From Methylobacterium oryzae (GTDB taxonomy: Bacteria; Pseudomonadota; Alphaproteobacteria; Rhizobiales; Beijerinckiaceae), in the NCBI RefSeq assembly GCF_021398735.1, contig NZ_CP090349.1:2238501-2302500 (forward strand): a stretch of 64,000 nucleotides of DNA. The letters run 5' to 3'. The stretch's first letter is position 1; every line of letters starts with the position of its first letter. The position numbers and the translations under genes were made by a program. Of this stretch, positions 43,227 through 61,054 are shown in pieces. A model generated the notes under the pieces. It worked only from the letters and a program-made list of their open reading frames with translations. It was not told the origin of the DNA and made no database searches.

Positions 43227-43673
43227 TCAGACCTGCGCCGGCTCGACGGTGTCGACCTGCAGATCCTCGACGATCGCCGTCCGCTCGGCCTCGTTCTCGG
43301 CGAGGCGGTGGACGTGCATCTCGGTGGCGCCCCGGCGGCGGACACGGTCGAGCCAGGTCCGGCGCAGGTGGTCGCGCGGGCTCTCGCTGGAACTCGCCAC
43401 CGAGACCATCTCGGCGATGCCGGCGTTGTCCCGGCGGACGGCGATCACCACGGCCTGCGCCATCTCGTCGAGGTCGAAGCCGCCGGCCGGGTGGACACCG
43501 ACCACGTAGCGCCGGCCGGAGCGGCCGCGCCAGGCCGAGAGCGGGAGCGCGGGGGAGCCGCGCAGACCCGCGGTCGTCTTGAGGCGTTCTTCACGCACAT
43601 CCTGCCTCCGGGTGCGATCGTCCTTCAGGTCGCGGAGCGCGGCCGACCAGGACAGGGCTCTTCTGTTCGCCAT
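43227..43673 (-). CDS. Probable SOS-regulated protein, unknown
   Basis: The 148-residue protein is not recognised. It is basic at the front (SAALRDLKDDRTRRQDVREERL), then has a compact middle (SGRRYVVGVHPAGGFDLDEMAQAVVIAVRRDNAG) and a charged end (DHLRRTWLDRVRRRGATEMHVHRLAENEAERTAIVEDL). No membrane segment is seen. The ATG lies inside a GTTC-N7-GTTC SOS box, and a -35/-10 pair with 17-base spacing sits just upstream. There is no ribosome binding site, so the message is probably leaderless or nearly so. A role in DNA damage response is inferred from this control alone. Confidence 0.7.
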   Translation of the reverse strand: MANRRALSWSAALRDLKDDRTRRQDVREERLKTTAGLRGSPALPLSAWRGRSGRRYVVGVHPAGGFDLDEMAQAVVIAVRRDNAGIAEMVSVASSSESPRDHLRRTWLDRVRRRGATEMHVHRLAENEAERTAIVEDLQVDTVEPAQV

Positions 43674-43679
43674 TTGTTC
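43665..43679 (-). promoter_or_regulatory. SOS box (LexA site)
   Basis: GTTCGCCATTTGTTC is an exact match to the alphaproteobacterial LexA consensus GTTC-N7-GTTC. It overlaps the start codon of the 148-residue gene and the expected transcription start. Confidence 0.8.
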
Positions 43680-43681
43680 TA

Positions 43682-43710
43682 ACCTAACGCGCGATATCCA
43701 CAGGCGTCAA
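43682..43710 (-). promoter_or_regulatory. Sigma-70-type promoter of SOS gene
   Basis: On the minus strand TTGACG (43705-43710) is followed after 17 bases by TTAGGT (43682-43687). Transcription would begin within a few bases of the ATG at 43673. The -10 match is weak. Confidence 0.5.
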
Positions 43711-43805
43711 GGGCGACGTTCCTAGAGCGAGATGTGGCGACGATGCCCGTTATCCACAAGCCGCCGGGCGCCGGTCCGACGCGGAAAACCGCGCTCGCGA
43801 ACGGC

Positions 43806-60430: not shown

Positions 60431-61054
60431 ATGATCCGCATTCTCGGCAAGGCCAGTTCGATCAATGTTCGCAAGGTGCTTTGGACCTGTGCCGAGATCG
60501 GATTGGATTACGATCGCCAGGACTACGGCAGCGGTTTCCAAGCAACGGATACCCCGGAATTTCTGGCTCGCAACCCGAACGGCCTCGTGCCCGTGATTGA
60601 AGACGCGGCAGGGGCCTTGTGGGAGTCAAATACGATCTGCCGCTACCTCGCTGCGAGCGCCACTCGGACGGATCTGCTCCCTGCTGACCCACGTGGACGC
60701 GCTCTGGTTGAACAATGGATGGACTGGCAAGCGACCGAGTTGAACGCGTCTTGGCGGGCGGCTTTCCTCGGCCTCGTTCGTCGTGATCCGGCCTACGCCG
60801 ATCCAGACCGGATAGTGGCGGGGGTCGAGGCCTGGAACGCGAATATGGGGATCCTTGACCACCATCTCTCCTCAACCGGAGCTTATGTGACCGGAGGAGC
60901 CTTCACGTTGGCGGATGTCGTTCTCGGCTTGTCCGTAAACCGTTGGCGCATGACGCCAATGGAGCGCCCGAGCTATCCCGCCGTCTCGGCCTATCATGAT
61001 CGCCTTCTCGCTCGATCCGGCTACCGAGACCACGGGGCGAATGGGATTCCTTAG
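60431..61054 (+). CDS. Glutathione S-transferase
   Basis: The 207-residue protein has the GST layout: an N-terminal thioredoxin fold (IRILGKASSINVRKVLWTCAEIGLDY, with the catalytic Ser expected near SSIN), the cis-Pro and glutathione site GLVPVIED and WESNTICRYLA, and a helical C-terminal domain with TLADVVLGLSVNRW. The substrate is not indicated by neighbours. Codon use is slightly less GC-biased than core genes. Confidence 0.88.
   Translation: MIRILGKASSINVRKVLWTCAEIGLDYDRQDYGSGFQATDTPEFLARNPNGLVPVIEDAAGALWESNTICRYLAASATRTDLLPADPRGRALVEQWMDWQATELNASWRAAFLGLVRRDPAYADPDRIVAGVEAWNANMGILDHHLSSTGAYVTGGAFTLADVVLGLSVNRWRMTPMERPSYPAVSAYHDRLLARSGYRDHGANGIP

Follow-up and report, generated by a model that had tools for sequence, protein, structure and literature searches.

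A conserved LexA-type box over the ATG of a probably leaderless gene in Methylobacterium oryzae

The locus and its promoter

The DNA considered here is a 64-kilobase window from Methylobacterium oryzae (assembly GCF_021398735.1, contig NZ_CP090349.1, positions 2,238,501 to 2,302,500 of the forward strand); the window designates this whole stretch. On its minus strand, it carries a gene for a 148-residue protein (43227..43673) whose start codon is embedded in a LexA/SOS box. The box, at 43665..43679, has the form GAAC-N7-GAAC in the orientation of the gene (GAACAAATGGCGAAC) and reads GTTCGCCATTTGTTC on the plus strand; the ATG, at 43673-43671, lies inside GAACAAATGGCGAAC. The corresponding GTTC-N7-GTTC form is that of the LexA site of alphaproteobacteria. 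The protein belongs to a family spread over the order and matched by no Pfam or NCBIfam model. As argued below from sequence comparisons, regulation of this gene by LexA is well supported and the gene is likely leaderless.

The start codon is preceded by a -35 element, TTGACG (43705..43710, minus strand), and, 17 bases further, by a -10 element, TTAGGT (43682..43687, minus strand). The start codon begins 8 bases after TTAGGT. The TA of the -10 element is 98% conserved among 93 distinct sequences of the genus. The original prediction, made from the letters of the window, had placed an exact GTTC-N7-GTTC site on the start codon, behind a TTGACG/TTAGGT promoter with 17-base spacing and with no ribosome binding site before the ATG. 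These features were all recovered, the promoter elements at 43710-43705 and 43687-43682, and a Shine-Dalgarno-like run (GGAG, GAGG or AGGA at -18..-4) occurs in just 3 of 95 orthologues of the genus.

Conservation of the box

Taken alone, the motif in the window is not significant and proves nothing: the window holds two copies for 1.32 expected, and two or more were found in 36 of 100 shuffled sequences. Conservation carries the case. The second copy (60456-60470), which lies 25 bases into a frame resembling, by eye, a glutathione S-transferase, is probably there by chance.

The gene was found in all 111 genomes of the genus that were searched, and the relatives named in the protein search belong to Methylobacterium or Methylorubrum. 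An exact box is present between -110 and +60 in 111 of the 111 loci, for 0.13 expected from the flanks, and the control motif in none. In 96 of them, the box contains an ATG in frame with the protein. The 15 others have lost the start in the box and have retained the exact box: 14 no longer show the letters ATG there (L084, L096-L107, L109) and in L108 the ATG is out of frame. For 13 of the 15 (L097-L109), the lost start is replaced by an ATG with a Shine-Dalgarno sequence, located where codon 26 would be. Besides, 13 loci of the genus display three successive GAAC units, forming boxes at -17 and -6.

Paralogues offer a useful comparison. The genomes of the genus contain up to four matches each, orthologue included, and all the paralogues among the matches listed, 39 in number (L111-L149), were read. 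None of these 39 has an exact box between -110 and +30, though many retain the N-terminal residues; in six of them, an exact box stands 145-203 bases upstream.

Profile searches were extended to wider samples. The family sample gave the gene in at least 181 of 298 genomes (25 of them from the genus itself), the order sample in at least 211 of 397 (11 from the genus and 8 more from the rest of the family), and the class sample in at least nine of 387, six of these nine lying outside the order. The three counts are lower bounds, at most 13, 9 and 10 candidates having been scored per genome, respectively. Bosea is one genus of the family with the gene. In the family and order loci that were read, the start was set at the first ATG lying no earlier than the last box. 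Close to this start, 40 of the 44 loci of other family genera have an exact box (it is missing in L250, L251, L252 and L257). In the order set, it was found in 31 of 43 loci (missing in L299, L304-L308, L312, L316, L320, L324, L328 and L330), or 30 of 42 loci from other families once L287, which is of the same family as Methylobacterium, is set aside. This set is not a random one: L287-L300 are the best-scoring loci, four of which (L290, L294, L296, L298) belong to one genus, and L301-L330 represent one or two matches per family. A truncated locus (L233), a locus of the genus (L227) and a locus without a usable frame (L297) were excluded from the box count. When positions are counted from the start of the alignment, with no start codon chosen, the box is found in 41 of 46 family loci and 31 of 44 order loci, for 1.01 and 0.77 expected. 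The control motif was not found in the comparison beyond the genus. Several of the loci devoid of a box share a sequence subgroup, ANYxLVRR...NLAxIR. A search for the same box before orthologues had been proposed as a check of the original prediction, and it is favorable in the genus, in the family and in the other families.

It may be asked whether the box could be fortuitous, that is, the outcome of a coding constraint (the GCG AAC codons) combined with a promoter element, with no role for LexA. Indeed, the downstream GAAC falls in conserved codons, and many paralogues also have CGAAC at this place. However, the upstream GAAC is universal, yet non-coding, and the listed paralogues keep the codons but have no box there. 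Moreover, 15 loci of the genus retain the box without that start, and in 14 order loci the box, at -16 or -17, immediately precedes the ATG. Coding constraint was therefore rejected as the cause of the box, and the whole account appears very improbable. An origin of the gene in mobile elements or phages was rejected as well: the protein has no match in a phage collection, a single match in a plasmid collection, on a 2.8-Mb (megabase) Methylobacterium bullatum record, and one weak match in PHROGs (E 0.052).

Use of the box in the genome

The genome as a whole has 106 copies of GAAC-N7-GAAC, versus 41 of the reversed control pattern. Exact boxes are located 37 to 174 bases upstream of genes identified with Pfam as lexA, dinB, ssb, a RadA-like ATPase and the A subunit of gyrase/topoisomerase IV. 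An exact box also precedes a gene taken for imuA from its sequence, which has no Pfam match, and recA has a box with one base off, 77 bases upstream of its start. Because boxes stand before lexA and repair genes, the motif is taken to be in use in the M. oryzae genome. The LexA reading of the present locus is supported both by the retention of the box before orthologues and by its presence before lexA, dinB and ssb.

Other genes of the same genome deserve mention. In front of a DUF3072 gene (L191), a TTGACG is followed by GAACATTTAGGGAAC, 15 bases from the start; this promoter is another candidate for such a layout. Other unnamed small genes stand behind exact boxes (L174, L189, L168, L156, L159); Pfam scans of L174, L189 and L168 returned no match.

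Leaderless geometry and an internal start

The distance from the end of TTGACN to the start is 31 bases in 93 of 96 loci of the genus, and 29, 30 or 32 in the remaining ones; one of the 96 measured loci (L084) has ATA in place of ATG. Given this distance and the 17-base spacer, transcription is predicted to start at or beside the ATG. Together with the rarity of Shine-Dalgarno-like runs, this layout agrees with the almost leaderless message that had been proposed. The same geometry is found further away: TTGACN stands 29-33 bases before the start in 17 of 44 loci from the rest of the family, and 29-31 bases before it in 15 of 44 order loci, from ten families. In 14 of these 15 order loci, the box ends just before the ATG. 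Other loci, eight of them from Bosea, have their ATG 47-49 bases away. The leaderless form would thus be common, not universal.

A second start seems to exist within the gene. Codon 26 is a GTG (43596..43598, minus strand) preceded by a Shine-Dalgarno-like GGAGG (43605..43609, minus strand), from which a 123-residue form would be made. Codon 26 is GTG in 95 of the 95 orthologues of the genus starting at the upstream ATG, and all 95 have a Shine-Dalgarno-like run before it, versus 2 of the 36 listed paralogues where the place can be located. Seven loci of one neighboring genus also have the internal start signal. Two products of 148 and 123 residues are likely from this one gene. Neither the internal GTG with its GGAGG nor the DnaA box described below figured in the original prediction.

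Alternatively, it may be envisaged that the box and the promoter are real, that the working product is the 123-residue form, and that codons 1-25 mainly constitute a 5′ leader. The uniformity of the internal signal in the genus, where GTG and the Shine-Dalgarno-like run are each present in 95 of 95 orthologues, goes in this direction, as do its replacement by a later ATG with a Shine-Dalgarno sequence in 13 of 111 loci and the unusually low variation of codons 4-9, even at third positions (0.07). On the other hand, codons 10-25 show the variation typical of coding sequence (0.136, 0.068 and 0.255 at positions 1, 2 and 3), paralogues starting at the upstream ATG conserve the N-terminal residues, and the internal signal is missing in several related loci despite their upstream ATG (for example L234, L237, L238, L241 and L242). 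Such a reduced role of the first 25 codons is possible but rather doubtful, and synthesis of both forms is preferred.

The protein family and its possible ancestry

The original prediction had assigned the product to no recognized family. This still stands, since neither the protein of the window nor the 20 and 10 relatives scanned, respectively, attained the cut-off of any Pfam or NCBIfam model. Weak rows obtained with relatives (best E 0.0087) were set aside, as they fell far short of the curated cut-offs and pointed to various unrelated families. No description of the gene family was found in the literature, as judged by titles and the openings of abstracts. A search of solved structures by sequence gave nothing at E 10, and fold searches with the model of the window protein gave nothing clear. 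An H-x-H stretch (EMHVHRLAE) evoked an HUH nuclease; this idea was dropped, several members in the order lacking the first histidine and some paralogues of the genus having a tyrosine for the second.

A relationship with the GIY-YIG superfamily is suggested by more distant members. The fold of the model of one homologue would link to GIY-YIG, and the rare relatives outside the order bear GIY-YIG nuclease motifs. Profile comparison to the superfamily through five of these relatives gave 99.6%, then 91.4%; L377, of the same family, and L378, the weakest match among the six outside the order, were kept out of the linking set. In Pfam scans, two of six linking proteins gave a GIY-YIG match, both below the cut-off (E 0.0074 and 0.011). 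Direct comparisons were negative: the whole family reaches a probability of 0.2%, the order set a score of 16.9 where shuffled decoys reach 19.8, and the order set with the linking relatives 20.7 for decoys up to 20.3, which was taken as negative. At the GIY-YIG positions, the window protein has V for the GIY tyrosine, S for the YIG tyrosine, A for the YIG glycine, D for the arginine, R for the histidine and V for the glutamate, and the asparagine is missing. None of the 111 loci of the genus retains either tyrosine, the glycine, the arginine or the glutamate. Considering these sequence and model comparisons, the protein probably descends from GIY-YIG nucleases and has lost their catalytic residues.

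One relative from outside the order (L375) combines clear GIY-YIG motifs with an exact SOS box of its own, GAACATATCAAGAAC. It may be imagined that the protein of the window is itself an active small nuclease of this type, comparable to Cho and induced to cut at lesions. The fold and profile links, the case of L375 and two precedents would fit this idea: in the excerpts available of the corresponding papers, cho of E. coli is under LexA control (PMC3820734) and a UvrC-like gene of Caulobacter, CC3518, has an SOS box (PMC1839093). SOS-controlled GIY-YIG proteins are thus already known as a kind. However, the loss of the signature residues in the window protein and throughout the genus makes an active enzyme unlikely. 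As for related literature, the excerpt available on Methylorubrum extorquens mentions recA and the SOS response and does not mention lexA or imuA (PMC7916467), and GIY-YIG does not occur in the excerpt of PMC12700426.

DnaA box and neighboring genes

A perfect DnaA box, TTATCCACA (43750..43758, plus strand), is located 85 bases upstream of the start, and a near-DnaA box, TGTGGATAT (43694..43702, minus strand), within the promoter spacer. TTATCCACA occurs once in the window, for 0.05 expected. The whole genome has six copies of it and eight of the reversed control, so that the count in itself is not elevated. Between -250 and +10, a perfect DnaA box is present in 57 of 111 loci of the genus, mostly 81-90 bases upstream, and in none of 666,033 flanking bases. 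Beyond the orthologues of the genus, it is found in 0 of 46 family loci, 3 of 44 order loci and 2 of the 39 listed paralogue loci. Three of the six genomic copies lie within 105 bases of an exact GAAC-N7-GAAC, one at the present gene and two at L337 and L338, where the distances are 19 and 105 bases. One of the latter two precedes a frame resembling, by eye, a LigD-type ligase, and the other a 77-residue hypothetical protein.

The upstream neighbor encodes a plsC-type acyltransferase (PF01553; 43806..44882, minus strand) and the downstream neighbor, 133 bases on, a DUF2125 protein (PF09898; 41984..43093, minus strand). A PF01553 neighbor is also found upstream in five loci of other genera or families, chosen for their resemblance; neighbors were picked by eye from 20 loci, six of which (L241, L288, L293, L303, L309, L325), unlike plsC in appearance, were left out of the scan. 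In 7 of 44 order loci (L289, L301, L302, L306, L310, L314, L322), the gene comes after a frame whose C terminus has the zinc-ribbon motif of ribonucleotide reductases, and PF02867 is present in both of those scanned (L302 and L310). The same arrangement is seen by eye in L374, outside the order. The position next to these neighbors is old, and neither neighbor indicates a function.

A model for the gene and its significance

A mechanism may be proposed from these elements. In the undamaged cell, LexA bound to GAAC-N7-GAAC would cover the end of the -10 region, the predicted transcription start and the ATG and, as judged by this position, would block initiation. After DNA damage, cleavage of LexA would allow synthesis of a message beginning at the ATG itself. 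This message would be translated into the 148-residue protein and probably, thanks to the internal Shine-Dalgarno sequence and GTG, into the 123-residue one. Within the genus, the DnaA box 85 bases upstream would probably bring a second input, from replication. The protein, most likely a GIY-YIG descendant minus the catalytic tyrosines, arginine and glutamate, might serve as a non-cutting repair accessory binding DNA or a partner, or as a damage checkpoint factor; this role is a guess. Taken as a whole, an explanation by a LexA-repressed leaderless SOS gene with two products, giving a GIY-YIG-derived, non-cutting accessory or checkpoint factor, appears fairly probable. Much more tentatively, it is tempting to imagine an as yet undescribed kind of SOS effector shared by the order, a nuclease-stripped GIY-YIG descendant made from a leaderless message under the control of LexA and, in the genus, of DnaA, which would hold back replication or division or shield damaged DNA and would possibly be the missing SOS checkpoint protein of the order.

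What is known of SOS regulons in bacteria other than E. coli concerns mostly the repair genes that they share. A family occurring in about half of the order genomes searched (at least 211 of 397), often with an exact LexA box and with no Pfam or NCBIfam match, would be an overlooked core part of the damage response of the order. The locus offers one short gene, one promoter and a natural series of lineages in which the box does or does not contain the start codon. It is thus a system for testing the action of LexA on a leaderless message and the role of a non-catalytic GIY-YIG protein.

Comparison with known systems

The gene resembles members of the alphaproteobacterial LexA regulon by its exact motif, by the placement of this motif over the promoter and by the occurrence of the same motif at lexA, dinB and ssb. 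It differs from them in that it has no Pfam or NCBIfam match, is probably leaderless and has its ATG covered by the box.

With respect to the GIY-YIG domain PF01541 (UvrC and URI type), the likeness would reside in the fold of the homologue model and in the link through relatives outside the order; in contrast, the signature residues are lost in the genus and there is no direct profile match. Cho and CC3518 share with the present gene LexA control, by record or by box, and the product of this gene probably goes back to a single GIY-YIG-type domain. Unlike them, the present protein lacks the catalytic residues, has an extra N-terminal stretch (W-x-G-x-S-G-x-R-Y) and forms a separate family, largely confined to one order.

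Finally, uvrB of E. coli is described as an SOS gene under joint control of DnaA and LexA (PMC6015884). As in uvrB, DnaA and LexA sites would be found here within one SOS promoter. The difference is that the present gene has one perfect DnaA box, at -85, which is common only within the genus and whose binding is predicted.
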